DNA from: Pseudooceanicola lipolyticus
GTDB taxonomy: Bacteria; Pseudomonadota; Alphaproteobacteria; Rhodobacterales; Rhodobacteraceae
Assembly (NCBI RefSeq): GCF_002786325.1
Contig: NZ_PGTB01000024.1
Span: 1 to 40,039, forward strand
Direction of reading: 5' to 3'
Length of the DNA: 40,039 nt
The position numbers were made by a program, and so were the translations under genes. Below the pieces are notes generated by a model. That model was given only the letters and a program-made list of their open reading frames with translations, had not been told where the DNA came from and searched no databases. Of the stretch, positions 12,733 to 37,937 are shown in pieces. The first letter of the stretch is position 1. Each line of letters opens with the position of its first letter.

Positions 12733-12821
12733 CCGCCTTGCGCGGTTTCCGAATCACCCCTATACGCAGCAGCGGGACACCCCTCCCCAACGAGGGGCGC
12801 TTATCTGGAAGGGTAGCATCA
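12733..12821 (+). ncRNA. candidate serC leader RNA (cis-regulatory)
   Basis: The 5' region of serC folds into hairpins: CCGC (12733-12736) with GCGG (12742-12745), and a longer stem in which AGCG (12771-12774) pairs with CGCT (12798-12801) and CCCCTC (12780-12785) pairs with GAGGGG (12792-12797), with a 5-nt bulge. The last stem sits just before the ribosome site GAAGGG. The serC motif described in alphaproteobacteria lies in front of serC-serA operons and has a final stem near or over the ribosome site, which matches the arrangement here. I cannot compare with the covariance model, so the identity is inferred from position and structure. Confidence 0.55.
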
Positions 12822-22786: not shown

Positions 22787-23746
22787 TTAGCGCTGGCGAG
22801 TTTCGGCGATCATGGCGAGCAGCTCGGCCATCACGGTTGCTCCGAGCAGCGAGGTAATCTGACCGGGGCCGTCGTAGGTTGGCGTGATTTCGACAACGTC
22901 GCAGCCCTTGATGTCGAGGCCGCGGATTTGGCGCAGGATGGCGAGGGTTTCGCGGGCGGTGGGACCGCCGGCTTCGGGCGTTTCGACGGCGGGGGCCGCC
23001 GAGGGGTCGACGAAATCCATGTCGAAGGTCACGAATACCGGTGCACCGGCGGTACGGGCGGCGATGCGCTCTGCCACGGCGTCGATCCCCATCTCGAAGA
23101 TGGCGTCCGTGGTCACGACGTCATAGCCGAGGTCCAGCGACTGGGTGATGTCGCCGCTGCGAAAGAGCGAACCGCGCATGCCAAGCTGGATCGACTTATG
23201 CGGATCGACGATCCCCTCTTCCACAGCCCGCAAGAAGGGCGTGCCGGCCGAATACCGCTTCTCAGCGAAATAGGTGTCCCAGGTGTCGGTGTGACTGTCG
23301 AAATGGACCAGCGCCAGCGGCCCGTGCCGCCGTGCCACGGCGCGGAGCTCGGCCAGCGTCACCGAATGGTCGCCGCCAAGGCAACAGGGCACCGCACCTG
23401 CCTCGACGACGCGCGCCACGGCCTGTTCGAGCCATTCCAGAGTTTCCATCTCGTATCCCGGCACCACCGGCGCATCGCCGATGTCAGCGATCTGAAGCGC
23501 CTGGAATACGTCGATGTTGCCGCGATAGGGATTAAAGGGGCGCAGCATGATCGACGCCTGACGGATGGCGTTCGGGCCCATGCGCGCACCGGTGCGAAAC
23601 GGCGCTCCGGAATCGGAGGGCAACCCGAGGATCGCGGCATCCAGCCCCTCGGCGGTGTCGCGCACGGGAAGCCGCATAAAGCTGGGCATGCCCACAAAGC
23701 GAGGCACGGCAAGGCTGTCTTTCGGCGCCGGGGGCGTTTCGCTCAT
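22787..23746 (-). CDS. ureohydrolase (agmatinase/guanidino-acid hydrolase family)
   Basis: The enzyme is predicted to release urea from a guanidino compound with a binuclear Mn centre. All metal-binding segments are present in the 319-aa protein: GGDHS (His127), HFDSHTDTWD (Asp150, His152, Asp154) and TFDMDFVDP (Asp242, Asp244). The loop after the last motif reads SAAPAVETPEAGG, different from the GTGTPE of many agmatinases, so agmatine is not a safe substrate guess; guanidinobutyrate, guanidinopropionate, guanidine or another guanidino acid are open. It is the last gene of the ten-gene minus-strand operon, 4-bp overlapped with the DUF1989 gene. Confidence 0.88.
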   Translation of the reverse strand: MSETPPAPKDSLAVPRFVGMPSFMRLPVRDTAEGLDAAILGLPSDSGAPFRTGARMGPNAIRQASIMLRPFNPYRGNIDVFQALQIADIGDAPVVPGYEMETLEWLEQAVARVVEAGAVPCCLGGDHSVTLAELRAVARRHGPLALVHFDSHTDTWDTYFAEKRYSAGTPFLRAVEEGIVDPHKSIQLGMRGSLFRSGDITQSLDLGYDVVTTDAIFEMGIDAVAERIAARTAGAPVFVTFDMDFVDPSAAPAVETPEAGGPTARETLAILRQIRGLDIKGCDVVEITPTYDGPGQITSLLGATVMAELLAMIAETRQR

Positions 23747-24366
23747 GGCTGAACCTCGGAGAATTCGAGTTCGATCTCGCGCGGGACACAATCGGGGCCG
23801 TTGATCGGCGTGACATCCTGCGGACAGGCCGAGAGCACCAGGATGATGTCACGATCCGCGCGCAGGGTGACGTGGTCTCCCGGGCTGGCGACGGGCAGTT
23901 CGCGCAGGATTTCGCCCTCGGGGCTGACGCCGACGCGCATGAACAGGTTCAGCGAGGCCGGGGTGAAAGGCATCGACAGGCCGATCTGTGACAGAGCGTC
24001 GTGGAAATTGCCGGCGCAGCTCCGGTGCTCTGGCGGCTGGTCGAGGTCAGCATAGAGCGGACCATTGCAGGGGCAGAGCTGGGTATCGTGATGACCGGGC
24101 GAGCTGTCTTCGATCATGGTGAAGAGCGGACGACGGTCCATCCCCATGACCGCGAGGCCGGTGTCCAGATAGATCGACGAATTGACCGAGCGTGTGTGCT
24201 CCATCGAGCTGTAGTCACAGGTGCCGTGGCCGGTTTCGGCGCCATCATCGGCCAGCGCCCAGGCATCGACGGCCTGTGTGCCATAAGGGTTAATGACGCG
24301 GACGGTCTGACCCGCTTTCATGCGCCATGCGCCACCCATCCGGGCCTCCAGCGTGAGTTTGGTCAT
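23743..24366 (-). CDS. DUF1989 (urea carboxylase-associated type) protein
   Basis: The 207-aa product matches the DUF1989 family, with NPYGTQAVDAWAL, a Cys-rich middle (CDYSSMEHTRS, QLCPCNGPLY, SCAGNFHDAL) and the C-terminal GDHVTLRADRDIILVLSACPQDVTPINGP. The Cys/His sites suggest a bound metal. Two family members, the urea carboxylase-associated proteins, form carboxyguanidine deiminase in guanidine breakdown. Here only one is present, and no urea/guanidine carboxylase accompanies it. A deiminase-like role on a guanidino or amidine group is therefore plausible but unproven. It is coupled to the ureohydrolase by a 4-bp overlap. Confidence 0.85.
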   Translation of the reverse strand: MTKLTLEARMGGAWRMKAGQTVRVINPYGTQAVDAWALADDGAETGHGTCDYSSMEHTRSVNSSIYLDTGLAVMGMDRRPLFTMIEDSSPGHHDTQLCPCNGPLYADLDQPPEHRSCAGNFHDALSQIGLSMPFTPASLNLFMRVGVSPEGEILRELPVASPGDHVTLRADRDIILVLSACPQDVTPINGPDCVPREIELEFSEVQP

Positions 24367-24375
24367 GGTTTGGAC

Positions 24376-24792
24376 TCAGCTCGCATAGACAGAGGCGAAA
24401 TCGCGAAAGCCCTTGATCTCTATCGGGTTGCCCGAGGGGTCGAAGAAGAACATGGTGCGCTGCTCTCCCGATCCGCCCTCGAAGCGGACAACGGGCGGGA
24501 TGTCAAAGGCGATACCGGCCTGTTCAAGACGCTCGGCCAGCGCCTTCCAGTCGTCGAGCGGCAGCACGGCGCCTATGTGGGGCATCATCACCATGTGATC
24601 GCCGACCTTGCCGGTGCGCGTGGTCATGAACGGTTCGCCAAGGTGCAGAGAGAGCTGATGGCCGAAAAAGTCGAAATCGACCCATGTCTCGGTGCTGCGC
24701 CCTTCCTTGCAGCCCAGAACCCCGCCGTAAAAGGCACGGGCCTCGTCGAGGTCAGTGATATGGATGGCGAGATGAAAGAGGGATTGCATCAT
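24376..24792 (-). CDS. VOC-superfamily (glyoxalase/dioxygenase-fold) protein
   Basis: The 138-aa single-subunit VOC protein has paired beta-alpha-beta-beta-beta modules: FHLAIHITDLDEARAFYGGVLGC at the start and RTMFFFDPSGNPIEIKGF at the end. His8, Glu near the end of the first module and Glu in NPIEIKG are probable metal ligands. VOC enzymes isomerise, epimerise or open rings, so it could serve as an epimerase or lyase within the pathway. It lies 9 nt before the DUF1989 gene and 17 nt after the M24 gene in the same operon. Confidence 0.85.
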   Translation of the reverse strand: MMQSLFHLAIHITDLDEARAFYGGVLGCKEGRSTETWVDFDFFGHQLSLHLGEPFMTTRTGKVGDHMVMMPHIGAVLPLDDWKALAERLEQAGIAFDIPPVVRFEGGSGEQRTMFFFDPSGNPIEIKGFRDFASVYAS

Positions 24793-24809
24793 GTTCTCCG
24801 AAGTATGCG

Positions 24810-25988
24810 TTATTTTACGGTCAGGCTGCGCGGCAGGTTCGAAAGCGGTTCCGCACCGCTCTCGGTTAGGATCACGGTTTCGGAGGCTCCGACCGTAAAG
24901 GCGCCGTAGCTGCGCAGCGTTGCAGGCAGGTGAAACACCATACCGGGTTCAAAGGGGCGATCGACGCCGGTGAAGAGGGACAGCAGCGCGCCTTCGCCCC
25001 AGTCCGGCGCAAAGGCGACGCCCATCGAGTAGCCGATCCGCTTGCGGAAGGCGGCGGTGTAGCCTGCGGCGTCTATCACGTGCTGTGCCGCCTCGTGTGC
25101 GGCGGCGCAAGGGACGCCCGGCCGCATCGCGGCCAGCGCGGCATCCAGTGCCCGCTCGGCCGTGTCCATCATGCGCTGTGCCTCCGCCGGGGGAGACCCG
25201 ATCCAGACCGACCGCATCAGGGCCGCGTGATAGCGGTCGTGACTGGCCGCAAGCTCAAGAAACACAGCATCGCCGTATTCCATCATGCGCCGCCGCCACG
25301 TGGCGTGCGGGACGCCCGAGCGCGGACCGGAACTGACAAGCGGCTCCATCGCCATCGACTCGGACCCGGCAGAGGTGGCGGCGGCGATCATCGCCGCAGC
25401 GACCGTGTTCTCGGACACCCCGACCTCGCAGGCCTCGATCGCGGCGACGAGCCCGGCCTGCGTATAGGCTGCCGCGCGGCGGATCGCATCGAGTTCAAGC
25501 GGGGATTTCACCACCCGCAGCGCCTCGACCCAGCCCGATCCGTCGGTCAGGGTGACGGGCAGCGTGGCGTCCATCCGGGCAAAGGTATCGGGGCTGACGA
25601 ACCAGCCGCTGCGCTCGACGGCCAGTTGCTGAAGGCCCATGGCGCCCACCATCTCGGCAAGGCGGGCCACCGGATCAGTGCCATCCTGCCATGTCTCAAT
25701 CTGCGACAGGTAGGTTGCGGCCCGCGCGCCGGTCTCTTCCAACTGGCGCACAAGAAGGCGCGGCGCGCCGCTTTCCTGCACCACAAGCGCCTGAAAGGCA
25801 AAGTAGCCCGCCGTCTGGCGACCCGTCGCCCAGAAGATATTCTCGGGACCGGTCAGCAACAGGGCCTCGGCCCCTTCTGCGCGCAGGCGGGCCTGAATGG
25901 CCGTGATACGGCGGTCGTACTCTTCGGGCGGGAAAACGGTTTCGCTCGGAACCGCGATGGTTGGCGCGAGGTCGAGGGTGTCAGTCAT
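24810..25988 (-). CDS. M24-family creatinase/ectoine-hydrolase-like protein with degenerate metal site
   Basis: The 392-aa product has a creatinase-type N-terminal domain (about 25-160) and a pita-bread C-terminal domain (about 165-390). In true M24 aminopeptidases five ligands (D, D, H, E, E) bind two metals. Here the first Asp position reads Glu245 (FLELAAS), the second is Ala (HAALMRS), the His is Tyr320 (RIGYSMG) and the first Glu is lost (FHLPATL); only Glu370 (GASETV) remains. The RIGYSMGVAFAPDWGE segment recalls ectoine hydrolase (DoeA/EutD). So it is likely a metal-independent hydrolase of a C-N bond in a cyclic amidine or guanidino substrate, not a peptidase. Its ATG overlaps the gntR stop as TAATG. 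Confidence 0.82.
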   Translation of the reverse strand: MTDTLDLAPTIAVPSETVFPPEEYDRRITAIQARLRAEGAEALLLTGPENIFWATGRQTAGYFAFQALVVQESGAPRLLVRQLEETGARAATYLSQIETWQDGTDPVARLAEMVGAMGLQQLAVERSGWFVSPDTFARMDATLPVTLTDGSGWVEALRVVKSPLELDAIRRAAAYTQAGLVAAIEACEVGVSENTVAAAMIAAATSAGSESMAMEPLVSSGPRSGVPHATWRRRMMEYGDAVFLELAASHDRYHAALMRSVWIGSPPAEAQRMMDTAERALDAALAAMRPGVPCAAAHEAAQHVIDAAGYTAAFRKRIGYSMGVAFAPDWGEGALLSLFTGVDRPFEPGMVFHLPATLRSYGAFTVGASETVILTESGAEPLSNLPRSLTVK

Positions 25989-26626
25989 TATTTTGCGCCT
26001 GAGAAGGTCTGGAGAAAGCGGTCGCGCACGTGTTCGAAGTGCTGCCACATGGCGGCGTGGGCAGCCTCGGCATCGCCCCGGTCGATTGCGTCGATGATCT
26101 CGACATGTTCGCGGGCCTGATCAGTGAAGGTGTCGTAGGTGCGGGTCAGCGTGCAGCGACGAGCGATGGCGCGCTGCTCGGCAAGGATGCCCGGCAGGAT
26201 CTCGAGTCGGGCGGCACGGGCCACTGCCATGTGAAACCGCTCGTCGGCTGCCCAGAAGGCGTCGAACCCAGTATGGGTGCCGGTTGCAAAGGCCTGCATT
26301 TCGTCCCGCAGGCCAGCCAGTTCTTGCGTCGGCGGATAACCCGCGGCGCGCGCGGCGGCGGCGCTTTCGAGTTGCTGTCGCAGCTTCACGATTTCGAACA
26401 GTTGCTCGACGGTGACGGATCGGACGAGGATTACCCCGTTCTTCAGCCGGTCGATCACGCCCTCGTTCTCAAGTTGCGACAGGGCCGTGCGCAGTGGGGT
26501 GCGCGAGATGCCAAGGTCTTCGGCAAGCCCTCGTTCGGAAAGCACCGACTCGGCCGGGGTCCGGCCCTGAACGATGTCGTCCTTCAAACGACGGTAGGCC
26601 GCCTGCGAGAGGGTTTCTCCGCTCAT
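25988..26626 (-). CDS. GntR-family regulator, FadR/FCD subfamily
   Basis: The 212-aa protein has an N-terminal winged helix (SQAAYRRLKDDIVQG, LSERGLAEDLGISRTPLRTALSQLENEGVI) and an all-helical FCD ligand domain with putative metal ligands in DERFHMAVARAA and REHVEIIDAI. FCD regulators sense carboxylic or amino acids. It is embedded in the operon between the M20 and M24 genes, with 4-bp and 1-bp overlaps, and is one of two GntR regulators in the set. The GTATAC palindromes in the island are candidate targets. Confidence 0.92.
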   Translation of the reverse strand: MSGETLSQAAYRRLKDDIVQGRTPAESVLSERGLAEDLGISRTPLRTALSQLENEGVIDRLKNGVILVRSVTVEQLFEIVKLRQQLESAAAARAAGYPPTQELAGLRDEMQAFATGTHTGFDAFWAADERFHMAVARAARLEILPGILAEQRAIARRCTLTRTYDTFTDQAREHVEIIDAIDRGDAEAAHAAMWQHFEHVRDRFLQTFSGAK

Positions 26627-27897
26627 GCTGCCTCCGAGATGACGGCGAGCGTCACGGCCTCGACCGCGACGGCGAGGTCGGCCTCGTCCATACCTTCTTC
26701 AGGGCAATGGCTGCCGTCCCAGTTGCGGATGAAGACCATTACGCTGTCCCACCCGGCGGTGGCAAAGGCGGCTGCATCGTGCCCGCCGCCCGAGAGCATC
26801 CGGCGCGGGCTGTCGCCGCGCCGTGCCGCGCCGTCGGTGACCCAGCCCGCCATTTCGGGCGACATGCGCTCGGGCTTCGAGCGCGTCTGGAGACCAAGGT
26901 CGAACTTGATGCCCGGTGTCGCCGCCTCGATCCGTGCGATCTCGGCCTTGAACGCCGCATCCGCCGCATCGAGCGTTGCTTGGTCATCGGAGCGCAGGTC
27001 GATGCAGAAGCCTGCATGACCGGCCACCTTGGCCATCGCGTGGGCGGGCCCTGCGGCGTCGAGCTTGCCGAAAGTCACGGTCAGGTCGTGGCCTGCCACC
27101 AGCATGTCGTCCCAGACGCGGTTCATCGCCACCACCAGTTCGGACAGGGCGACCACGGCGTCGGCGCGGCCCTCGCGCGGGGCGGCACCGGAATGGGCCC
27201 AGGTGCCATGCACCTGCGCCGCACGGTAGCGCAGCCCGCCGCGCACCGCCTCGACGATCCCATACGCCTCGCCAGCGGTGAAGAGGATCGGGCCCTGCTC
27301 GATATGGAACTCGACAAAGCGCGCCGGCGGCGGCGCTGTCTGGTTCAGGACCGCATCAGAGGAATAGCCCTGATCGGCCATGTGCTCGGCCAAGGTGCGG
27401 CCGCTGTCCACGCGCCGTGCTTCGAAATCGGCGGGCGTCAGCAGCCCAAGGTAGGCGCGCGAGCCGATATAAGAAACGGGAAACCACACGCTTTCCTCGG
27501 CCCGGGTGACCGTCAGAACGATGTCACTGCAGGGCGTGATCCCGCCTTTGACCAAGGCGCGGATCATGGCCAGTGCCCCGATCACACCGGCCGGCCCGTC
27601 ATAGGCCCCCCCCATGCTGACGGTGTCGAGATGCGAACCGATGAAAAGCGGAGTGGCCTCGGGGTTCCGCCCCGCCATGCGGGCAAAGAGGTTGCCGGCG
27701 GCATCGCGCGTAACGGTCAGACCAAGAGCCAAAACCTCGGCTTCGATCAGCGCATGCGCCTCGGACTCAAGGTGGCTGTAAGACGGGCGGGTCCAGCCCG
27801 GCCCCGGCTCGGACAGCGCATTCACAGCCTCAAGGCCCCGATTGATCGTGGTGCGGATCTCGTCCGTCATCTCGGGGGTCAGGGTGGGTTCGCTCAT
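26623..27897 (-). CDS. M20 hydantoinase/carbamoylase-family amidase
   Basis: The 424-aa Zn-dependent amidohydrolase shows the pattern of N-carbamoyl-L-amino-acid hydrolases and beta-ureidopropionase: GSHLDTV (His89), AYDGPAGV (Asp100), RAEESVWF (Glu134/135), EFHIEQGP (His198), the dimer-domain HSGAAPREGRADA and SGGGHDA near the end. Such enzymes remove carbamoyl (or acyl, allantoate, ureidoglycolate) groups from amino acids and release CO2 and ammonia. Context next to the ring-opening PxpABC genes and the ureohydrolase favours an N-carbamoyl or ureido intermediate. It overlaps both neighbours by 4 bp. Confidence 0.92.
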   Translation of the reverse strand: MSEPTLTPEMTDEIRTTINRGLEAVNALSEPGPGWTRPSYSHLESEAHALIEAEVLALGLTVTRDAAGNLFARMAGRNPEATPLFIGSHLDTVSMGGAYDGPAGVIGALAMIRALVKGGITPCSDIVLTVTRAEESVWFPVSYIGSRAYLGLLTPADFEARRVDSGRTLAEHMADQGYSSDAVLNQTAPPPARFVEFHIEQGPILFTAGEAYGIVEAVRGGLRYRAAQVHGTWAHSGAAPREGRADAVVALSELVVAMNRVWDDMLVAGHDLTVTFGKLDAAGPAHAMAKVAGHAGFCIDLRSDDQATLDAADAAFKAEIARIEAATPGIKFDLGLQTRSKPERMSPEMAGWVTDGAARRGDSPRRMLSGGGHDAAAFATAGWDSVMVFIRNWDGSHCPEEGMDEADLAVAVEAVTLAVISEAA

Positions 27898-28844
27898 GCG
27901 GTCGCCTTCCGGATGTCTGGGTTGAGCGTGGTGGCAGGCATCCCGCCTTGCAGCGCCGTAATTACGTGCCCGGCAGCCGCGCAGGCGACCCGGCTGAGCG
28001 CATCCTCGGTGGTGGCGCCAAGGTGCGGGGTGAAGATGACATTTTCATATTGCGCCAGCGGCCCCTGCGGCGCGTCGGGCGAATAGACATCGAGCCCTGC
28101 GCCGGCAAGGCGCCCTGACGCCAGCGCCTCTGCCAGCGCCTCTTCATCGACGACACCCGCCCGCGCGAGGTTAACCAGCAACGCGCCCGGCTTGGTCACC
28201 GCGAACCGTGCCCGGTTCATCAGGTGCCGAGTTTCGGGGCGCATCGAGGTATGGAGCGAAACGAGATCGGCCTGTGCCAGCCCCTTCTCGAGTTCCGTCA
28301 CCCGCTCGAAGGGCGCGGTGTCGGTGGCATTCGGCGAATAGACCAGAACACGCATTCCCAGTGCCGCGTCCAGCATCCGGCCAAAGCGGCTGCCGATCGC
28401 ACCCCAGCCAACGATGAGGGCTGTCTTGCCCTCCAGCTCGGAAAAGCTGCGGCTCTCGCGAAAGCCTGCTGTCCCTGCACGTTCCCAGCGGTCGGCCGCC
28501 GTCAGGCCGCGCGCCAGTGCCAGCGTCAGGCCCAGCGCCAGTTCAGCCACCGAGCGCGCATTGGCGCCGGGCGTGTTGGCCACGAGGACGCCCTTTTCAG
28601 CGGCGGCTTCCTTATCGACGGCATCGTGCCCGGTGCCATGCACCACGACCACCTGAAGCTGGTCGGCCCCGGCGAACGCCTCGGCGCTGAAGGCTGCATT
28701 GCGAATGATGACCGCATCACAGCCCGCCACGGACGCGGCAAGGCTTGCGCCGTCTGTCGCTGGAGCCATCACCGGTTCGATCCCGGCCTCACGCAGCAGG
28801 CGCAGCCCGTCGTGGTGAATGGGTTGTACGATCAGGCATTTCAT
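27894..28844 (-). CDS. D-2-hydroxyacid dehydrogenase family protein
   Basis: The 316-aa NAD(P)-dependent oxidoreductase has the Rossmann loop IVGWGAIGSRFGRML, catalytic Arg in VNLARAGVVDEEAL, Glu-equivalent region DVYSPDAP (where most members have a Glu before the Pro, here Asp) and His in TPHLGATTEDALSR. It interconverts a 2-oxo acid and a D-2-hydroxy acid. It resembles serA in the window but lacks ASB and ACT domains. In this operon it could reduce the oxo acid made by the aminotransferase on the other side of the divergent promoter. The changed Glu position deserves a check. Confidence 0.9.
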   Translation of the reverse strand: MKCLIVQPIHHDGLRLLREAGIEPVMAPATDGASLAASVAGCDAVIIRNAAFSAEAFAGADQLQVVVVHGTGHDAVDKEAAAEKGVLVANTPGANARSVAELALGLTLALARGLTAADRWERAGTAGFRESRSFSELEGKTALIVGWGAIGSRFGRMLDAALGMRVLVYSPNATDTAPFERVTELEKGLAQADLVSLHTSMRPETRHLMNRARFAVTKPGALLVNLARAGVVDEEALAEALASGRLAGAGLDVYSPDAPQGPLAQYENVIFTPHLGATTEDALSRVACAAAGHVITALQGGMPATTLNPDIRKATA

Positions 28845-29497
28845 GTGGCATCGGCCCTATCTGCATTCAGCGTCTGAAGACGTCGAAAAATCGCGTCGCG
28901 GGCACCCTCCAGATGGGCGCGCATCGCCTTCTCCGCGCGCGGGCCATCCTGGTCCCTTAGCGCGTCGAGAATGTCGAGATGCTCGGCACATCCCTTGAGA
29001 AACCGCGCTGGCACCTGCGTGTGGTCAAAGATGGCCGTGCGCCGGTGTAGGTTGGCGATGACCTTTGCCGTCGCCCGGTTTCCGGCCGCCAGCGCGATCA
29101 TCTGGTGAAACTCGTTGTCCGTGTCCCACGCACGTCCCTCGTCGCCGGGCCCCTCGCGCATCAGCGCCATGACACGCGCCTCCATCGCATCCAGTTCATC
29201 GCGCGCAATGCCGATAGCCGCTGCGGCGCAGGTCGGTTCGAGGCTCAGACGGATGAAAAAGATCTCGTCGACCTCGGCCTCGCTGCATCGCCGAACACGG
29301 GTAAAACGGCCCTGCACCTCGGCCAGCCCCTCGCTCAGGATGCGTTTCATCGCCTCGCGGACCGGAGTCCGCGACATGGCAAGCCGTTCTCCAAGCGCCG
29401 CTTCTTGCAGAACCTCGCCCGGCTTCAGCTCGCCTTCGAGGATCATGCGCAGGATTTCGTGGTGCGCCTTGCTCACAAGGCTGACATCGGTGCTCAT
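28841..29497 (-). CDS. GntR-family regulator, FadR/FCD subfamily (second)
   Basis: The 218-aa product has a winged helix (LQEAALGERLAMSRTPVREAMKRILSEGL) and an FCD domain with DNEFHQMIALAAGN and EHLDILDAL as probable ligand/metal sites. It is not a close copy of the other GntR in the operon, so two different effectors or promoters are likely. Overlap of 4 bp with pxpC and with the dehydrogenase places it within the polycistronic transcript, so it would be autoregulated through the divergent promoter. Confidence 0.92.
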   Translation of the reverse strand: MSTDVSLVSKAHHEILRMILEGELKPGEVLQEAALGERLAMSRTPVREAMKRILSEGLAEVQGRFTRVRRCSEAEVDEIFFIRLSLEPTCAAAAIGIARDELDAMEARVMALMREGPGDEGRAWDTDNEFHQMIALAAGNRATAKVIANLHRRTAIFDHTQVPARFLKGCAEHLDILDALRDQDGPRAEKAMRAHLEGARDAIFRRLQTLNADRADAT

Positions 29498-30528
29498 GGT
29501 GCTCTCCCCATCAGGATGGCCTCGGGGTCATAGATGCCGCCGACCAGATCACAGGACAGCAGATATTCGGAGGTCAGATGTCCGGTCGATTTGCCGACGA
29601 GACTGTCCAGCAGGGCGGCCAGGGCGGAGGCTTGCCGGCGCGCGGCCTCTTCGGCGGTGGGTCGGTCGACGACCTGAAACCGAAAGCGCGTTCCGGTTGG
29701 CATCTGGGCAAGGCGCGGCAGATCGGCGGAGATCACGGTTGCGATCTTGGGATAGCCGCCGGTGGTCTGGCACTCGGCCATCAGAACCATCGGCTTGCTC
29801 GATCCCGGCACTTGGATTGCGCCGGGAACCGCACCATCGGAAATGATGTCATGCCCATCGATCGCCGGAAGGTCGGGACCATCGAGGATCGAGGCCATGC
29901 GGTCACGCTGTGCGGTGATCAGGAATTCTTCAGTCGAGAGCCGGTCAAGTACCTCGGGAGTGAATTTTCTGTCCTGCGGCCCGAGAACGATGCGGATCGG
30001 GTCCGACAGCCGGTGTGCGGCGGGCGGGGACGCGGGGCGCAACAGCGCGCCATGCCCTTCGGGCGCGCCCAGCGGCAGCTTGTCTCCGGCTCGGAGCGCG
30101 CGCCCCTCGTGGCCACCAAGGCCGAAGCGCAGGTGGGTGGCGCGTGAGCCCAGCACCTCGGGCGTTGCGATGCCGCCCGAGACCGCAAAGTACCCCCACA
30201 CCGCGCCACGCAATGAGCCAATGCGCAGCGTCTCACCGGCGTCGAGCTGGTGGCTTTCGCCGGGCTGTACGGGCACCTCACCGACACGGATGTCGCAATC
30301 AGCCCCAGTCACGGCGAAACGTATCGTGCGTTCGGCACGAAAGGTTCCGCCCATCGCCGCGAATTCGAGCGCGGCTGCTTCGGTGCTATTGCCGCAAAGC
30401 CGGTTGGCCAGCGCCATTGACGGCCAGTCCATCGGACCGGCGGCCGAAACGCCATAGCTGCGGTAGCCGCGCCGCCCCTTGTCCTGAACCGAGGTCATCG
30501 GTCCTGTGGAAAGCACTTCCAGAATCAA
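29494..30528 (-). CDS. pxpC: 5-oxoprolinase subunit C (biotin-dependent carboxyltransferase-like)
   Basis: The 344-aa protein is of the KipA/PxpC family, recognised by the opening LEVLSTGPMTSVQDKGRRGYRSYGVSAAGPMD, later GPQDRKF and SDGAVPGAIQVPG, and AECQTTGGYPKIATVISADLP. With PxpB and PxpA it forms the ATP-dependent bacterial 5-oxoprolinase that opens the lactam ring of 5-oxoproline to glutamate. Within this island the ring may belong to a related substrate. It overlaps pxpB and gntR by 4 bp each. Confidence 0.92.
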   Translation of the reverse strand: MILEVLSTGPMTSVQDKGRRGYRSYGVSAAGPMDWPSMALANRLCGNSTEAAALEFAAMGGTFRAERTIRFAVTGADCDIRVGEVPVQPGESHQLDAGETLRIGSLRGAVWGYFAVSGGIATPEVLGSRATHLRFGLGGHEGRALRAGDKLPLGAPEGHGALLRPASPPAAHRLSDPIRIVLGPQDRKFTPEVLDRLSTEEFLITAQRDRMASILDGPDLPAIDGHDIISDGAVPGAIQVPGSSKPMVLMAECQTTGGYPKIATVISADLPRLAQMPTGTRFRFQVVDRPTAEEAARRQASALAALLDSLVGKSTGHLTSEYLLSCDLVGGIYDPEAILMGRAP

Positions 30529-31286
30529 GCCACCAACTCGGGCTGAACCACGGCTTCGCCGCGCGCCACGCGCACGGCAAGCTCTGACGCCTCGGCCTCG
30601 GCCACAGGCTCGAAGCGAACCAGGTCGCCTGCGGCAAACAGAAACGGCTTTGCTCGCTTCGGATCAAAAAGACGCACCGGCGTACTGCCGATAAAGCGCC
30701 AACCCGACGGGCCGGCCACCGAGTTGACCGATGCCTGCTGGCCGCCGATACCGATGGCGCCCGCCGGGACAAGCTGACGTGGCTTGGGCAGGCGCGGCAC
30801 ATGCAATTGCCCTGGCAGGCCGCCAAGATAAACGAAACCCGGTGCAAAGCCGATCATGAAGACACGGTATTCCGCGCTGGAGTGAAGCGCGATCAGCTCT
30901 TGCTGCGTCATGCCCTTTTCGGCCGACAGGCTCTCGAGGTCCAGCGCGGCCTCGCCCCCGTAATAGACCGGGATGTGCCAGCGCCGCGCCGGACGCGCGG
31001 CCTGTTCGGCGGCCGCGAACCGTTCCGCGACCACTTGCTCGACACGATCTCCGGACGTCACCAGCGGATCATATAGGATCAACAGGGACCGGTAGGTCGG
31101 CACCGCCTCTTCAAATCCATCAAAGGGATGGTCCCGCAGCGAATCAGCGACGCGGATCACCGCCTCGTTGGTTTCCTCATCGATAGTGTCACCAAAGGAA
31201 ACGGTAACCGCCCGTTCCCCCAATGGGAGAAACAGGGGGTATCTGTCACCGCTTTGACCCCGAAGTGGTTCCTTTAGTCCCGTCAT
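30525..31286 (-). CDS. pxpB: 5-oxoprolinase subunit B (KipI-like)
   Basis: The 253-aa product is of the KipI/PxpB family: FLPLGERAVTVSFGD at the start, PTYRSLLILYDP, HIPVYYGGEAALDL, and the conserved FAPGFVYLGGLP and PAGAIGIGGQQASVNSVAGPSGW with a catalytic-type His/Asp surround. ATG 31286 is taken because the family starts there and the longer frame reads as promoter DNA; the ribosome site (AAAGAA) is weak. It is the first gene of the ten-gene minus-strand operon. The start lies 165 nt from pxpA, across a shared regulatory region. Confidence 0.92.
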   Translation of the reverse strand: MTGLKEPLRGQSGDRYPLFLPLGERAVTVSFGDTIDEETNEAVIRVADSLRDHPFDGFEEAVPTYRSLLILYDPLVTSGDRVEQVVAERFAAAEQAARPARRWHIPVYYGGEAALDLESLSAEKGMTQQELIALHSSAEYRVFMIGFAPGFVYLGGLPGQLHVPRLPKPRQLVPAGAIGIGGQQASVNSVAGPSGWRFIGSTPVRLFDPKRAKPFLFAAGDLVRFEPVAEAEASELAVRVARGEAVVQPELVA

Positions 31287-31338
31287 AGTTCTTTCTATCG
31301 AAGTTCTTGCGTCGCTGACCTGCGCGCTCTTGCCGTTT

Positions 31339-31357
31339 GGGTATACCAGTTGTACCC
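31339..31357. promoter_or_regulatory. candidate GntR operator in the pxpB-pxpA divergent promoter
   Basis: GGTATACC (31340-31347) is a perfect 8-bp palindrome inside a wider GGGTA...TACCC inverted repeat (31339-31357). It lies between the divergent operons. Palindromic sites with a central TAT-A core are typical of FCD-type GntR regulators, two of which are encoded in the adjacent operon. The same core recurs before the ABC genes. Confidence 0.55.
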
Positions 31358-31451
31358 GAAAGAAAAGAGCTAGCCCGCCTCTCCCGTGCTGCGAGGAGCG
31401 GTTAGTCCGAAATTTGGGCGCTGCCATTTACCGCGCGAACGGAGACCACAG

Positions 31452-32222
31452 ATGACACGGACACTCGATCTGAACTGCGACATGGGCGAAAGCTTTGGCG
31501 CCTACACCATTGGCGACGACGCCGCGATGATGGAGCTGATCAGCTCCGCCAATATCGCCTGCGGCTTTCACGCGGGCGACCCGGTGGTTATGAGCAAGAC
31601 CGTGCGCCTTGCCAAACAGGCCGGAGTGTCGGTTGGGGCGCACCCCTCTTTCATGGATCTCTACGGGTTCGGTCGCCGCCGCATCTCGGGCGAACGCCCC
31701 GAAGATCTGGAGGCGCAGCTCATCTACCAGATCGTTGCGATGCAGGGCATATGCGCCGTCGCAGGGCACCGGATGACATATGTCAAAACACACGGAGCGC
31801 TTGGCAACATTGCGGCGGTTGATCCTGACCTTGCCGCGCTGTGCGTGCGTGCCGTCAAGTCGGTGGATCCATCCCTGACCTACGTGTCGCTACCCTACTC
31901 CGAGACCCATGCCGCCGCCGAAAAAGCGGGGCTGCAGGTGGCCTGCGAAATCTACGCGGACCGCAGCTATACCGACGCCGGAGAGCTGACGCCGCGCAGC
32001 CAGCCGGGCGCGGTGATTCACGACCCCGAACAGAGCCTCGATCAGGTGCTCGAAATGGTCCTGAACGGCCACATCCCCACCACGGGCGGCAAGCGCCTAC
32101 CGGTGGAACCGGCCACCCTTTGCATTCACGGTGACACCCCGGGCGCCGTTGAAATTGCCCGCGGACTGCGGGTTGCACTTGAAGAAAACGGTGTGACCAT
32201 CGCGCCGTTCACCAATCCCTGA
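31452..32222 (+). CDS. pxpA: 5-oxoprolinase subunit A (LamB/YcsF family)
   Basis: The 256-aa protein is a clear LamB/YcsF member: LDLNCDMGESFGAYTIGDD, ANIACGFHAGDP, SVGAHPSFMDLYGFGRR, YVKTHGALGN and LCIHGDTPGAVEIA. It provides the catalytic lactam-hydrolysing subunit together with PxpB and PxpC. Unusually, it is divergent from pxpBC instead of forming one pxpABC transcript. GGAG precedes the ATG by 7 nt. The aminotransferase follows after 10 nt. Confidence 0.94.
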   Translation: MTRTLDLNCDMGESFGAYTIGDDAAMMELISSANIACGFHAGDPVVMSKTVRLAKQAGVSVGAHPSFMDLYGFGRRRISGERPEDLEAQLIYQIVAMQGICAVAGHRMTYVKTHGALGNIAAVDPDLAALCVRAVKSVDPSLTYVSLPYSETHAAAEKAGLQVACEIYADRSYTDAGELTPRSQPGAVIHDPEQSLDQVLEMVLNGHIPTTGGKRLPVEPATLCIHGDTPGAVEIARGLRVALEENGVTIAPFTNP

Positions 32223-32232
32223 AGGAAACTTA

Positions 32233-33090
32233 ATGTCGCGAACAATCTATTTGAACGGAAGCTGGATGCCTGAAGGGGAGGCAAAAATCTCACCTTTTGA
32301 CAGAGGTTTCCTCATGTCTGACGGGATTTATGAGGTCACCTGCGTCCTGGACGGCAAGCTCGTCGAATACGAAGGTCACGCCGCCCGCCTGCAACGGTCG
32401 GCCCGCGCACTGGACCTAAACCTCCCGGTCGACGAGGCAGAGCTGCTGGTCCTTCACCGAGAGATCGTGGCCCGTAACGGTCTTGAGCAGGGCATGATCT
32501 ACCTCCAACTCACGCGCGGCGCCGCGGACCGGGATTTCATCTTCCCGCCCATGGACACGCCGTCGACCCTGTTCATGTTCACGCAGGCCAAGGACGTGCT
32601 CGGCAACCCGGCGGCCGAGGCGGGCATTTCCGTGGTGACGGTTCCCGATCTGCGCTGGGGCCGGCGCGACATCAAGACGGTCCAACTCCTCTATCCTTCC
32701 ATGGCCAAAATGGAGGCCAAGGCAAAAGGCGCCGACGACGCCTGGATGGTGGAAGACGGGGTCGTGACCGAGGCAAGCTCGGCGACCGCACATATCGTTT
32801 CCGCCGACGACAGGTTGATCACCCGCGACCTGTCGCATGCGCTGCTGCCGGGCATTACCCGCGCGTCGGTGCTGGAGCTGGCGGCCGCTCATGGGATCAC
32901 CGTGGAAGAGCGCGCCTTTACCGTGGAGGAAGCGCAGGCCGCGCGCGAGGCGTTCATCACCTCCGCCACCAACTTCGTGATCCCGGTCACCTCGATTGAC
33001 GGGGCGCGAATCGCCGATGGGAAACCCGGCCCTCTAACGCAGGTTCTTCGCGCCTTGTACGTGGACACCCGGCGCGCCGCCGCGATCTGA
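32233..33090 (+). CDS. D-amino-acid aminotransferase (fold-type IV PLP)
   Basis: The 285-aa enzyme has the class IV pattern: ISPFDRGFLMSDGIYEV, the PLP lysine in RWGRRDIKTVQLL (Lys148), the Glu in VVTEASSATAHIV (about 178) and the phosphate-binding TSATNFVIPV. The RDIK context is that of D-alanine-type aminotransferases rather than branched-chain enzymes. It would convert a D-amino acid to a 2-oxo acid, in line with the D-hydroxyacid dehydrogenase in the facing operon. AAGGA precedes the start; it is cotranscribed with pxpA. Confidence 0.9.
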   Translation: MSRTIYLNGSWMPEGEAKISPFDRGFLMSDGIYEVTCVLDGKLVEYEGHAARLQRSARALDLNLPVDEAELLVLHREIVARNGLEQGMIYLQLTRGAADRDFIFPPMDTPSTLFMFTQAKDVLGNPAAEAGISVVTVPDLRWGRRDIKTVQLLYPSMAKMEAKAKGADDAWMVEDGVVTEASSATAHIVSADDRLITRDLSHALLPGITRASVLELAAAHGITVEERAFTVEEAQAAREAFITSATNFVIPVTSIDGARIADGKPGPLTQVLRALYVDTRRAAAI

Positions 33091-33101
33091 ATGCCCCAAG
33101 G

Positions 33102-33131
33102 GCCCCCGGAGCGAAGCGTTCGTTTCGGGGC
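33102..33131 (+). terminator. strong hairpin after the aminotransferase gene
   Basis: GCCCC (33102-33106) pairs with GGGGC (33127-33131) and GGAGCGAA (33108-33115) pairs with TTCGTTTC (33119-33126), with one bulge, two G-U pairs and a 3-nt loop. No T-run follows. It could end or attenuate transcription before the separate ABC-transporter promoter. Confidence 0.45.
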
Positions 33132-33201
33132 GCAGCGCGCGGGGCGGCGAGTGCCCAAAACTTGTGCAGGTTTTACGCAAATCTCCACACGGTGCGCCGC
33201 C

Positions 33202-33209
33202 GGTATACC
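33202..33209. promoter_or_regulatory. candidate GntR operator 1 upstream of the ABC genes
   Basis: GGTATACC occurs 112-119 nt before the ABC ATPase start. With the next site it forms a wide inverted repeat in which GCCGCCGGTATAC (33196-33208) faces GTATACCGCCGGC (33238-33250), 12 of 13 positions matching. Confidence 0.55.
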
Positions 33210-33237
33210 AAAAGACTGTTCACTGACTTTCATTTCA

Positions 33238-33243
33238 GTATAC
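33238..33243. promoter_or_regulatory. candidate GntR operator 2 upstream of the ABC genes
   Basis: GTATAC within AGTATACCGCCGGC is the second arm of the pair, 35 bp centre-to-centre from the first. Two sites a few helical turns apart would suit looping or cooperative binding by a dimeric GntR regulator. Confidence 0.5.
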
Positions 33244-33320
33244 CGCCGGCATAACGAAACCGGTCATCCGGACCGCCATCACCGCCCCTTGGCGGCAGGG
33301 TGGATCAACAAGGAAAATGA

Positions 33321-34136
33321 ATGACCCAGCAAGACGCGCCCTCTCTGCTTAAGCTGCGCGGCATCCGAAAGAGCTTTGGCGAGCTCGAAGTCCTCAAGGG
33401 CATCGACCTCGATGTGGCCCCCGGTGAAGTCGTGTCGATCATTGGCGCGAGCGGCTCTGGCAAAAGCACATTCCTGCGCTCGATCAACGCGATCGAGCCG
33501 GCCGACAAAGGCACCATGGACTTCGAGGGCAAGCACCTCGACTTTGACGCCAACAGCCGCTTTTACCCCGGCGCTCGCGAACTTCAGGCCCTGCGCTCGC
33601 GCATTGGCATGGTGTTTCAGAGCTATAACCTCTGGCCCCACAAGACCGTTCTGCAGAACGTGATCCACGCCCCCATGCGGGTTCTCGGCCAATCGCGCGC
33701 CGAAGCGACCGAGGTGGCCGAGGCGCTGCTGAGCCGCATCGGCCTCTATGACAAGCGCGACTCCTCGCCGCTCCGCCTTTCGGGCGGTCAGCAGCAGCGT
33801 GTCGCGATCGCGCGCGCGCTCGCGATGAAGCCCCGCCTCATGCTCTTTGACGAGGTGACATCGGCCCTTGACCCGGAACTGGTCCACGAAGTGCTGCTGC
33901 TCATGGCCTCGCTCGCCAGTGAAGGTATGACCATGTTGCTGGTGACGCACGAAATGTCCTTCGCGCGCGACGTGTCGTCTCGGGTTCTGTTCTTTGACAA
34001 GGGCGTGATCGGCGAACAGGGCACCCCCGACAAGGTCTTGCGTGACCCGGAGAGCCCGCGCCTGCGGCAATTCCTCCATTCCATTCTACACGACGACCTG
34101 ACCGTTGCGGGCACCGACAAGGGGCTGATCCAATGA
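33321..34136 (+). CDS. polar amino-acid ABC transporter, ATP-binding protein
   Basis: The 271-aa ATPase has Walker A GASGSGKST (42-50), Q-loop VFQSYNLWPHKTV, signature LSGGQQQR (153-160), Walker B LMLFDEVTSALDPE and the H-loop VTHEMSFARDVSSRV. This is the HisP/GlnQ type of importer ATPase. AAGGA lies before the ATG. It overlaps the permease by 4 bp. The own promoter region carries two GTATAC sites, so uptake appears to be controlled together with the catabolic operons. Confidence 0.95.
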   Translation: MTQQDAPSLLKLRGIRKSFGELEVLKGIDLDVAPGEVVSIIGASGSGKSTFLRSINAIEPADKGTMDFEGKHLDFDANSRFYPGARELQALRSRIGMVFQSYNLWPHKTVLQNVIHAPMRVLGQSRAEATEVAEALLSRIGLYDKRDSSPLRLSGGQQQRVAIARALAMKPRLMLFDEVTSALDPELVHEVLLLMASLASEGMTMLLVTHEMSFARDVSSRVLFFDKGVIGEQGTPDKVLRDPESPRLRQFLHSILHDDLTVAGTDKGLIQ

Positions 34137-34789
34137 CACAGTTCTGGAACGACGTTCAGGTCTATGGCCCCGGTTTCCTCTCGGCGGCATGGACCGTTCT
34201 TTGGCTGACGCTCCTGACTATCGTGGTCAGCTGGGGCTTTGGCCTCGCCGCAGCACTTGGCCAGCGGTCTGACATGAAAGCCGTGCGGGCGACGGCGGCT
34301 TTTTATGTCTGGTTCATCAGAGGCACCCCGGCTCTGATCCAAATCTTCATCGTCTACTTCGGTATGCCCCAGCTTGGCATCCGCCTGACCCCCTACACGG
34401 CCGGGGTTCTGGCGCTTGCGATCAACTCGGGCGCCTACGTGACCGAGATCATCCGCTCCGGGCTGTCGGCCATTCCCATCGGGCAGACAGAGTCGGCCTT
34501 GGCCCTCGGGTTCAGCCAGCGCGAGACCATGCGTACGATCATCCTTCCGCAGGTTTTCCGCATCATCCTGCCGTCGATCACCAACGAGGCACTGTCGACG
34601 CTCAAGAACACCTCGCTGCTCTCGACGATCACGGTGGTGGAACTGACGCTTTACGCGCAGACGCTGATCTCGGCGACCTTCCGACCCTTCGATTTCTACA
34701 TTGCGGTGGCGATCATCTACCTGCTGCTGACCACGATCCTGACGCAACTAGCCGCATTTTTCGAACGCCGCTACGCGCGGCTTTACTGA
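34133..34789 (+). CDS. polar amino-acid ABC transporter, permease
   Basis: The 218-aa inner-membrane protein is of the HisM/GlnP type, with about five membrane spans and the signature FIRGTPALIQIFIVYFGMP near the middle and the ATPase-docking loop EALSTLKNTSLLSTI. Only one permease gene is present, so a homodimeric pore is likely. It lies between the ATPase and the binding protein. Confidence 0.94.
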   Translation: MTQFWNDVQVYGPGFLSAAWTVLWLTLLTIVVSWGFGLAAALGQRSDMKAVRATAAFYVWFIRGTPALIQIFIVYFGMPQLGIRLTPYTAGVLALAINSGAYVTEIIRSGLSAIPIGQTESALALGFSQRETMRTIILPQVFRIILPSITNEALSTLKNTSLLSTITVVELTLYAQTLISATFRPFDFYIAVAIIYLLLTTILTQLAAFFERRYARLY

Positions 34790-34889
34790 AAGGTCACGGC
34801 GCCTTCGGGTGTCGGGCCTCCACCCCTCGGGCGCAACCTCCACGCGACACACTTTCCCGAGCACTGACCAGAACAGGGAGTTCTACATT

Positions 34890-35684
34890 ATGAAAATCAA
34901 AACCACGATCGCGGCGCTCGCCGCCACTCTGCTGCTGCCATTCGGCGCAGCCTCTGCTGACGACGCGCTCGAACTGCTGGAAGCGGGCGTTCTGTCAGCC
35001 GCGACCGAAGGCACCTACCCTCCGTTCTCCATGCGCGCTCCCGACGGGTCGCTCGATGGCCTCGAAATCCGGGTTATGGGTGAAATCGCCAAGCGCCTCG
35101 GGCTGGAATACAAACCCGTCATCGTCAAGTGGGAGTCGGTGCTGATCGGTCTCGAAGCGGAACAGTACGACATCGTTTCCGTCGCCATGGACATCACCGA
35201 AGAGCGCCAGAAGAAAGTCATGTTCTCTGACGGCTGGCTTGAGTCCGGCGGCCGTGTCGTAGTGCGCAACGACAGCGACATCACCGCGCCGGCAGAGGTC
35301 GAAGGCCGCCCGGTCGGTGGCCTCGTCGCCTCGAACTGGACCAAGATCGCCGAAGAACTGGGCGGTGAAGTGAAAGCCTACAAGGCCGAGTCCGACGCGA
35401 TGCAGGATCTGGCGAACGGCCAGGTCGATGCGATCATCACCGACGCGGTTGCTGCCGCCTACGCGATCCAGAAATCGAACCTGCCGCTTCGCCTTGTCGA
35501 AGAGCCTGTCAGCTCCATCCAAAAGGGCTTTGCCATCAAGATGGGCAAGCCGAACCTTGCCAAGGCCGTGAACGAGGCTCTCGCAGAGATGATCGCAGAC
35601 GGCACCTACGAAGCCTTGACCACCGAATTGATCGGTGTGAACCCGGCGCCGAAACAGCCTATCCGCACCATCTTTGCCGAGTGA
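34890..35684 (+). CDS. polar amino-acid ABC transporter, periplasmic binding protein
   Basis: The 264-aa family 3 binding protein has a signal peptide (KIKTTIAALAATLLLPFGAASA, cleaved before DDA), the domain opening GTYPPFSMRAPDGSLDGLEIRV, and VSVAMDITEERQKKVMFSDGW. In amino-acid binders Arg in the MD-T-R region holds the carboxylate; here the equivalent segment is MDITEERQKK, so a typical alpha-carboxylate contact is possible. AGGGAG precedes the start. The ligand would name the pathway substrate. Confidence 0.92.
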   Translation: MKIKTTIAALAATLLLPFGAASADDALELLEAGVLSAATEGTYPPFSMRAPDGSLDGLEIRVMGEIAKRLGLEYKPVIVKWESVLIGLEAEQYDIVSVAMDITEERQKKVMFSDGWLESGGRVVVRNDSDITAPAEVEGRPVGGLVASNWTKIAEELGGEVKAYKAESDAMQDLANGQVDAIITDAVAAAYAIQKSNLPLRLVEEPVSSIQKGFAIKMGKPNLAKAVNEALAEMIADGTYEALTTELIGVNPAPKQPIRTIFAE

Positions 35685-35755
35685 TCCAAAGGCAACCGGA
35701 TCCGGGGCGGGCCAATGGCCCGTCCCTTTCTCATTTTGAAGGACCAGGAGCCCCC

Positions 35756-36934
35756 ATGTTGCGCCACTTTCCCATCGACGAATACGAAACGCGCTGGCAA
35801 CGGGTCGAACGGATCATGTCAGACGCGGGTTTTGACGCCGCCGTTGTCGTCGGCCGGGGTGGCGGCACAATGGATAACTGCGGCGACATTCTTTACCTCT
35901 CCAACCACTACTCGGTCAGCGGAGGAATGGACTCCCGCATCTGGTCGGCCCGGGCCTTTTCCGGGATCATCCTGCAAAAGGGTCACGCCCCCGAGCTGCA
36001 CATCGACGAGCCCGAGCCGCGCCAGGACCTTGTCAGCATCGACGAAGTGTATTGCGACAACCACCCGTTCCTGTCGATCGCCCGCCGCCTGAAAGAGCGC
36101 GGCATCAGCGGGCGCGTCGCCTTCTGCGGGAGCTGGTTCACGCCGGTCAAGTTCTGGCGCCAGTTGAGCGAGGCGACACCGGACATCGAATGGGTCGACA
36201 TGGACGACCTCGTGCGCCGCGCCCGCGCGATCAAGAGCGCGCGCGAGCTGGACACCTATCGTATCGCAGGGGCCGCCGCTACCGAGGCGACCGACGTCCT
36301 GATGAAAGCGCTGGTCGCCGGCAGGACCGAGCGCGAGGCGGCGGGCGAAGCCGCCCGTGTGACGGTGGCGCGTGGCGGCCGCATTCAGGCCATCGGCACC
36401 AATCACGGTGATACGATGGACTATGACTATCGCTTTCCGCTCACGGGTTCTGCGGCGGACGCGCCCGCGCCGGGCGATCTTGTGCGGGGCACGGTCCATG
36501 CGGCGTTTCAGCAGGGCTATTACCTCGACCCGGGCCGCACGGCGGTTTGCGGTGGACAGCCGAACGCGCGCCAAAAGCGCCTGATCGACGCCACCGCCGG
36601 GATCGTGCGCAAGCTGTCTGACATGATGCGCCCCGGCGTTCTGCTGACCGATGTCGCCGCAGAGGGCGACCGCCTGACCGCGGCCTACGGCGGCACAGAG
36701 TCCGCGATCATGAAGAACTTTCCTTTCTTCGGGCACGGCATCGGGCTGTCGTTCGAGCAGCCGCGTATTTCGACCGTCATGTCCGAGCCCGGCGACCGGG
36801 TTCAGGAGAACATGGTTTTCGGGGTCGAGGCATTTCTCGCGGACGAAGGGGTAGGATCTGCCTTTGTCGAGGACATCCTGATCATCGGCAAGGACGGCAA
36901 CGAGCTTCTGACCCGGTCCCCCTACCACTACTGA
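35756..36934 (+). CDS. M24-family peptidase/creatinase-like protein (second)
   Basis: The 392-aa product has a creatinase N domain (about 12-155) and pita-bread domain (160-390). Metal ligands are partly kept: His327 (FFGHGIG), Glu358 (VFGVEAF), Glu372 (FVEDIL) and Asp258 (YLDPGRT), while the first Asp is replaced (RGTVHAAF). It is therefore closer to active M24 enzymes than its partner at 24.8 kb, but still not a standard Xaa-Pro aminopeptidase. AGGAG lies upstream of ATG 35756. It follows the binding-protein gene by 71 nt and closes the plus-strand operon. Confidence 0.82.
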   Translation: MLRHFPIDEYETRWQRVERIMSDAGFDAAVVVGRGGGTMDNCGDILYLSNHYSVSGGMDSRIWSARAFSGIILQKGHAPELHIDEPEPRQDLVSIDEVYCDNHPFLSIARRLKERGISGRVAFCGSWFTPVKFWRQLSEATPDIEWVDMDDLVRRARAIKSARELDTYRIAGAAATEATDVLMKALVAGRTEREAAGEAARVTVARGGRIQAIGTNHGDTMDYDYRFPLTGSAADAPAPGDLVRGTVHAAFQQGYYLDPGRTAVCGGQPNARQKRLIDATAGIVRKLSDMMRPGVLLTDVAAEGDRLTAAYGGTESAIMKNFPFFGHGIGLSFEQPRISTVMSEPGDRVQENMVFGVEAFLADEGVGSAFVEDILIIGKDGNELLTRSPYHY

Positions 36935-37213: not shown

Positions 37214-37326
37214 TGAGCTTCCCCCCGAAATTCGGACACTGACATAAGTTATGACTTGCAGTCTGCTGATCTTCGACGAGAAGGAGAACTGAGTTGTCGA
37301 AACGCGAGCAGCACGCGCCTGAGTTC
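37214..37326 (+). mobile_element. IS3-family left end with orfA 5' fragment
   Basis: TGAGCTTCCCCCCGAAATTCGGACA at 37214 looks like the terminal repeat of an IS3-family element. GAAGGAGAACTGAG and a TTG start (37294) lead into SKREQHAPEF, the N-terminus of the OrfA transposase. Homology stops after GAGTTC (37326), where the IS5-family fragment begins. The element has been deleted from there on. Confidence 0.65.
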
Positions 37327-37608
37327 GGCGTTAATCATGACCGTCTTTTTCTCACCGTGCTCGGCGGCCAGGCCGGCCTTTATCTGCGCGAAGACGCCCT
37401 TGTCGCTCCACCGCTTCCAACGGTTGTAGAGCATCTTGTGCGGGCCATAGGCCCCAGGCGCATCGCGCCACCGCAAGCCATTGCACTTGATGAAGGTAAT
37501 CCCGCTCAACACACGCCGATCATCGGCGCGGGGTTTGCCGTGGGACTTCGGGAAATAGGGCTCAAGACGTGCCTTCTGCGCATCTGTCAGTCAGAAGAGG
37601 TCAGACAT
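37327..37608 (-). pseudogene. IS5-family transposase pseudogene
   Basis: The ATG at 37608 is followed by a stop TGA at codon 6 (37591-37593), where related transposases have Trp (LFWLTD). The catalytic domain is missing because the frame is truncated at 37327. Both lesions make it non-functional. Confidence 0.75.
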
Positions 37609-37861: not shown

Positions 37862-37937
37862 TGGTGAGCCGTGCAGGATTCGAACCTGCGACCCACTGAT
37901 TAAAAGTCAGTTGCTCTACCAACTGAGCTAACGGCCC
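37862..37937 (-). tRNA. tRNA-Lys (anticodon UUU)
   Basis: The minus strand folds into a standard 76-nt tRNA with encoded CCA: acceptor GGGCCGT/ACGGCTC, D-arm GCTCAGTTGGTAGAGC, anticodon arm ACTGACTTTTAATCAGT with anticodon TTT, and T-arm GCAGGTTCGAATCCTGC. All stems pair apart from one G-U. The 3' end faces the island, the usual side for integration into tRNA genes. Confidence 0.97.

Follow-up and report, generated by a model that had tools for sequence, protein, structure and literature searches.

A widely conserved sixteen-gene cluster of Pseudooceanicola lipolyticus, most likely for uptake and degradation of a cyclic or capped amino acid

Several described systems resemble parts of the locus reported here. 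In Corynebacterium glutamicum, pxpTABC-pxpR encodes the ATP-dependent PxpABC enzyme along with an importer of its own and a regulator of the GntR type (PMC13274462); the operon, as described, has no M24, M20, transaminase or dehydrogenase gene, its importer belongs to the APC superfamily and its operator is agattgttcaacaatct. Ectoine clusters, ehu/ueh-eutABCDE (doeABCD), have a creatinase-fold M24 ring hydrolase, and import in them is by ATP-binding cassette (ABC) or tripartite ATP-independent periplasmic (TRAP) transporters (PMC5924519). Proteins of the DUF1989 and ureohydrolase families occur in the guanidine carboxylase/carboxyguanidine deiminase and guanidinase pathways. The locus studied here is a cluster of sixteen genes at 22787..36934 of a 40,039-nucleotide stretch of P. 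lipolyticus (GCF_002786325.1, contig NZ_PGTB01000024.1, positions 1 to 40,039), the whole of which is called the window. The cluster most likely imports and degrades a cyclic or capped amino acid. A published description of this gene set was not found in searches of the open-licence papers of PubMed Central (PMC), which agrees with the preliminary description of the locus, whose author knew of no described pathway with this set.

All sixteen genes are open reading frames at the coordinates listed below, and the same sixteen were recovered by a GC-position gene caller. Families were assigned with Pfam for the ten minus-strand genes and with NCBIfam for all sixteen; the assignments agreed with the families named in the preliminary description, whose inventory was thereby borne out. 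Features are given in order of coordinate.

22787..23746, minus strand: ureohydrolase-like protein (PF00491); GGDHS and DSHTD motifs kept, His of the HGT motif replaced by Ala167.
23743..24366, minus strand: DUF1989 protein (PF09347), by family models.
24376..24792, minus strand: VOC-fold protein, by family model; in some further genomes, too, it is found next to a D-2-hydroxyacid dehydrogenase.
24810..25988, minus strand: M24a, creatinase/ectoine-hydrolase-type protein, by family models and structure.
25988..26626, minus strand: GntR1, GntR/FCD regulator, by family models.
26623..27897, minus strand: M20 hydantoinase/carbamoylase-type amidase, above the TIGR01879 subfamily cut-off.
27894..28844, minus strand: D-2-hydroxyacid dehydrogenase (PGDH/glyoxylate reductase-like), by family models.
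28841..29497, minus strand: GntR2, GntR/FCD regulator, by family models.
29494..30528 (alternative start 30498), minus strand: PxpC, 5-oxoprolinase subunit C-like, by family models.
30525..31286 (frame open back to 31427), minus strand: PxpB, above the TIGR00370 cut-off.
31336..31347, minus strand: operator-like GGTATACCCAAA, between pxpB and pxpA.
31452..32222, plus strand: PxpA, by family model; it falls in a separate clade of 32 rows.
32233..33090, plus strand: D-amino-acid transaminase (DAT), fold IV, above the NF005209 cut-off.
33202..33213, plus strand: operator-like GGTATACCAAAA, by motif match.
33233..33244, minus strand: operator-like GGTATACTGAAA, by motif match.
33321..34136, plus strand: amino-acid ABC transporter ATPase, by family model.
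34133..34789, plus strand: amino-acid ABC transporter permease, by family model.
34890..35684, plus strand: periplasmic binding protein that retains Arg and Asp of the alpha-amino-acid site and has additional acidic residues.
35756..36934, plus strand: M24b, the other M24 protein of the cluster; identity to M24a about 22%.

Genome contigs were scanned with M24a, which gave 75 loci; the 31 whose M24a was at least 58% identical were counted as relatives. Presence of the remaining genes was called at a per-gene identity threshold, some loci being cut by contig ends. GntR1 was present in 28 of the 31 relatives, PxpB, PxpC and GntR2 in 27 each, the dehydrogenase in 26, and PxpA and M20 in 25 each. 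DAT (20), VOC (10), DUF1989 (6), M24b (5) and the ureohydrolase (1) were less frequent, the figure for DAT being an undercount because this gene often lies at or beyond the 10-kb flank in the TRAP-type loci. On these counts PxpABC, the dehydrogenase, M20, M24a and the two GntR regulators form a trunk, to which the ureohydrolase is a rare addition. The gene order also recurs in other genomes, so the cluster is more than a chance assembly; the neighbourhood search suggested in the preliminary description thus recovered the same order, with each trunk gene other than M24a in 25 to 28 of the relatives. A looser version, at 40-50% identity, was present at loci L071, L072 and L084. Homologues of the VOC protein (E up to 1e-45) occurred in four further genomes of the 367 searched in the class, three of them with an adjacent D-2-hydroxyacid dehydrogenase. 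These dehydrogenases were 29-30% identical to that of the window at L132 and L133 and, at L134, 57% identical to the reductase of Agrobacterium fabrum C58; L135 had no such neighbour. The VOC proteins of L132, L133 and L134 were 67-68% identical, and the rest of the cluster was absent from the stretches examined.

A shared palindrome was recognised by reading the intergenic DNA of the relatives. The motif GGTATACYNAAA, loosened after the sites of the window had been seen so as to cover them, had three matches in the whole 5.23-Mb genome. One lies in the pxpB-pxpA interval, and two lie in the gap that separates DAT from the ATPase gene; 100 shuffles of the window gave no match. Of 25 relatives, 20 have GTATAC in the 300 bp before pxpA, as compared with 0-2 for each of seven control palindromes; it also stands ahead of separately placed TRAP operons (at several loci) and of DUF1989/ABC/M24b units. 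Its total in the window is three, no excess over base composition, and the sole informative features are its location and the longer motif. Since GGTATACYNAAA is confined to the two promoter regions of the cluster and GTATAC recurs upstream of pxpA in the relatives, the cluster is probably one jointly regulated set. Seven of the nine junctions between minus-strand genes overlap by 1-4 bp (PxpC counted from 30528), and on the plus strand PxpA and DAT are followed by a 230-bp gap and then by the ATPase, permease, binding protein and M24b genes. As this gap carries two copies of the motif, three transcription units are probable rather than two; the two divergent, mostly overlapping operons first proposed are thus upheld as to the overlaps and probably not as to their number.

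Joint regulation has to be weighed against the post hoc loosening of the motif and against several further results. The reversed GGTATACYNAAA control gave two genome matches, compared with three for the motif, and GTATAC was missing upstream of pxpA in 5 of the 25 relatives (L018, L024 and L032-L034). The strict 13-mer TGGTATACYGAAA had no match in this genome; across 295 genomes of the family it matched 55 times, compared with about 35 for its reversed control, and is not specific. Of 30 of these 55 places that were examined, three lay in pxp clusters, one in an M20-GntR-M24 cluster and one beside weak matches, and 25 beside none. GTATAC was also absent from the C58 stretch examined. One M20-GntR/M24 cluster (L121, G315:C22:8000-27000) has the same motif at 8932, a VOC protein (82% identical), a GntR1 homologue (61%) and, by eye, a dipeptide-type ABC importer.

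Importers were scored in the 31 relatives, the ABC type of the window being called from a binding protein of 55% identity or more or an ATPase of 60% or more (for L038 the ATPase only). TRAP genes were present in 20 relatives, 17 of which had the binding protein, and the ABC type in 10; one relative (L021) had both and two had neither, an alternation with a Fisher p of 2.5e-5 (6.4e-5 without L038). DUF1989 (6 loci) and M24b (5) occurred among the relatives only in ABC-type loci. The solved proteins closest to the TRAP binding protein of L017 were Bordetella DctP 2pfy and 2pfz (E 4e-41 and 6e-39), which we take to be the pyroglutamate-binding proteins of the original 2007 paper; 6wgm followed at 9e-37 and the next at 1e-20. 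The DctPs of 17 relatives were grouped by identity clustering, and 14 align at 69-84% to that of L017. Two Bordetella DctPs are reported to bind pyroglutamate (PMC12344293, PMC5812351). A pyroglutamate-type TRAP transporter beside the trunk in 20 of the 31 relatives points to a lactam acid as a candidate substrate.

The ABC binding protein was compared at positions of E. coli GlnH. R75 is kept in every one of the 12 ABC-type rows, as is D157 in all 10 that reach it; E or D stands at GlnH D10 and D at GlnH T70 in all 12 rows. In the rows of C58 and Pantoea, Ser occupies the place of GlnH D157. Such residues presumably fit a ligand with a carboxylate, an ammonium group and an added positive charge. 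Because the importers alternate, the ABC pocket differs, and DUF1989 and M24b stay with the ABC type, we infer that two entrances feed one lactam-type trunk. On a plasmid of Agrobacterium tumefaciens AF1/95 both importers, the trunk, VOC, M24b, DUF1989 and a DapA-like gene occur in one stretch.

The Pxp proteins exceeded their family cut-offs: PxpA scored 360.6 bits on the subfamily model (cut-off 226), PxpB 185.8 on TIGR00370 (145.55) and PxpC 265.4 on TIGR00724 (230.2). The scores of PxpA and PxpB, the pyroglutamate-type TRAP transporter of the relatives, and growth of C. glutamicum on 5-oxoproline by means of pxpTABC under a GntR repressor (PMC13274462) would all suit plain 5-oxoproline use, in which imported pyroglutamate is turned into L-glutamate by PxpABC and the remaining enzymes take part in amino-acid scavenging of a loosely related sort. 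This is nevertheless unlikely. M20 and the dehydrogenase, beside M24a, are conserved about as well as PxpABC and in the same gene run, and these three are lacking from the C. glutamicum cluster as described; the binding protein of the window also retains the ammonium-binding Asp, which a lactam would not need.

The M20 protein scored 231.8 bits on the hydantoinase/carbamoylase amidase model TIGR01879 (cut-off 204) and 270.3 bits on that of ErtE, an N-carbamyl-L-glutamate amidohydrolase (NF058540). These scores suggest a hydantoin-type route with PxpABC as an ATP-dependent hydantoinase and M20 stripping an N-carbamoyl group; the second one, however, is under the ErtE cut-off of 520, and M20 had no match in the Rhizobium loci L032-L034 although PxpABC and M24a are kept there, which makes the route quite unlikely. 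A search for ErtE in the open-licence PMC papers gave no relevant match.

The nearest structural match of M24a is DoeA, and M24a has the catalytic residues of the creatinase/ectoine-hydrolase type. With the modes of import shared with ectoine clusters, this would fit catabolism of ectoine, 5-hydroxyectoine or a near-analogue with M24a as the ring hydrolase. We consider it improbable, as M24a remained far under the cut-offs of both DoeA/EutD equivalog models, TIGR02993 and NF038259 (168/613 and 276/575 bits). The AstE/AspA family (PF04952), to which the DoeB deacetylase presumably belongs, had no match in the genome, while a positive control in E. coli was detected, and no DoeC- or DoeD-type gene is among the sixteen; PxpABC, M20, DAT and the dehydrogenase stand there instead.

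The preliminary description had also assigned guanidine-handling enzymes to the cluster. Catabolism of guanidine, creatinine or guanidino acids would be in keeping with the ureohydrolase, whose nearest solved protein is 3-guanidinopropionase, with the DUF1989 protein, with the acidic pocket of the binding protein and with the two genes of the creatininase family that the genome has outside the cluster. The ureohydrolase, however, has a single counterpart among the relatives (L011, 87% identical), and in both proteins Ala replaces a His that is kept in E. coli SpeB and in all five other ureohydrolases of the genome. Guanidinases of the GdmH type have Thr, His and Trp at PF00491 positions 15, 134 and 223; at the first two, which were compared, this protein has A48 and A167, as judged both from an ungapped offset and from an alignment with SpeB and the paralogues. 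Carboxyguanidine deiminase, CgdA/CgdB, has two DUF1989 subunits; the DUF1989 protein of the cluster, one of two in the genome (the other is on a different contig), fell far under the cut-offs of the UAAP models (85.6/284.7 and 41.9/205.95 bits). No guanidine riboswitch was found in the window at the Rfam gathering score, and none of the 19 matches to urea/guanidine carboxylase in the genome exceeded the full-length cut-off of 1303.85; two of them, at model positions 448-769, are both PxpC proteins. The rarity of the ureohydrolase and its lost His, together with the missing riboswitch and carboxylase, weaken the guanidine claim, and the guanidino reading as a whole is improbable.

A further similar cluster is carried by plasmid At of A. 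fabrum C58 (ATU_RS26185-26135; L122, NC_003064.2, about 465-476 kb), where ten genes with a divergent GntR gene run in the order ABC-M20-enolase-M24-amidotransferase-VOC-reductase-DAT; the record assigns no function. This cluster and its counterparts in Klebsiella, Pantoea and Erwinia share with the window an M24a (about 50%), an amino-acid ABC importer and an M20-type amidase, and that of C58 also a VOC protein (82%), a hydroxyacid reductase and a DAT (56%). They differ in having a class I amidotransferase and an enolase-superfamily protein but no PxpABC in the stretches examined (PxpA had no match in 25 kb of C58). In the enterobacteria the ABC-M20-enolase-M24 clusters are accompanied by a DapA-like protein, class I amidotransferase, aminotransferase and short-chain dehydrogenase/reductase (SDR); SDR, DapA-like and aminotransferase genes are also added beside DAT in some alphaproteobacterial clusters. 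The enolase-superfamily protein of the relatives had its top score on DgcA, far under the cut-off. A glutamate-family theme is suggested by this DgcA-nearest protein together with the pyroglutamate-type TRAP transporter, PxpABC and the ErtE-like M20.

The reading we favour, tentatively, is one substrate-induced regulon, with a trunk and two entrances, by which an amino acid that is cyclic or N-blocked, and that probably belongs to the glutamate family, is broken down. D-serine, 4-hydroxyglutamate and an opine-like lactam are speculative candidates for the substrate. For it we infer the following steps and substrate class. In most relatives a pyroglutamate-type TRAP transporter would take up the lactam acid; in the window a form with more positive charge would enter by the amino-acid ABC importer, and M24b and DUF1989 would be the enzymes of this branch. 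M24a and the M20 amidase would open and uncap the molecule, and PxpABC would open a 5-oxoproline-type lactam at the expense of ATP. DAT may convert a D-configured product to a 2-oxo acid, which the D-2-hydroxyacid dehydrogenase, with VOC where present, may reduce or oxidise. One of the GntR/FCD proteins would bind GGTATACYNAAA and dissociate from it in response to the substrate or to an intermediate. A narrower version is more doubtful. In it the creatinase-fold M24 hydrolases, the M20 amidase and a divergent PxpABC would work one after another on a D-configured amino acid that is either a cyclic amidine or a lactam. Its two interchangeable entrances would be TRAP for the lactam acid and, for a cationic amidine that has first to be converted to this acid, ABC together with M24b and DUF1989.

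Other observations weigh against the favoured regulon. Both importers occur together in L021 and AF1/95, the predicted model of the TRAP binding protein is poor (pLDDT 60), and the TRAP and ABC binding proteins suggest differing ligands. The PxpC equivalog NF045499 was missed (231.2/500 bits), and the PxpA clade of 32 rows is distant from E. coli PxpA (45% identity), so that the lactam need not be 5-oxoproline. The genome also has a second PxpABC in a different context (G000:C230, L086, 7385-10107; PxpA 87% identical). The neighbours of this second set include a spermidine-type ABC importer (by eye), a GntR gene and a 2-oxoglutarate-oxygenase-like gene (no NCBIfam match), and a creatininase-family gene is at 29331-30050 of the same contig. 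Taken together, the cluster is genuine and widely conserved, and it is probably a jointly regulated catabolic system. The initial proposal, that a single catabolic system acts on an amino-acid-like compound which is imported and either cyclic or capped, is supported; its guanidine part is weakened and the cyclic-amino-acid reading strengthened.

Elsewhere in the window, a transposase-like remnant (by eye) is located to the right of the cluster at 37249-37512, in a stretch of lower GC, followed by a tRNA-Lys gene at 37862-37937; no repeat of the terminal 12-20 bases of this gene was found in the window. A serC leader RNA (RF00517) is at 12770-12821, ahead of apparent serine biosynthesis genes, and the open frame 5043-6059 encodes glycine-aspartate-rich repeats that resemble, by eye, the RTX-type calcium-binding kind.

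Within the collection scanned, the cluster was found in about thirty genomes. They belong to marine, soil-dwelling and plant-associated bacteria, including Paracoccus denitrificans, with looser relatives in A. fabrum C58 and Klebsiella. If the favoured reading holds, there would be a widespread cyclic amino acid nutrient that could be found in genetically tractable hosts, and the reaction range of M24 creatinase-fold enzymes, PxpABC and DUF1989 proteins, families now labelled in databases as peptidase, 5-oxoprolinase and urea-associated, would be widened.

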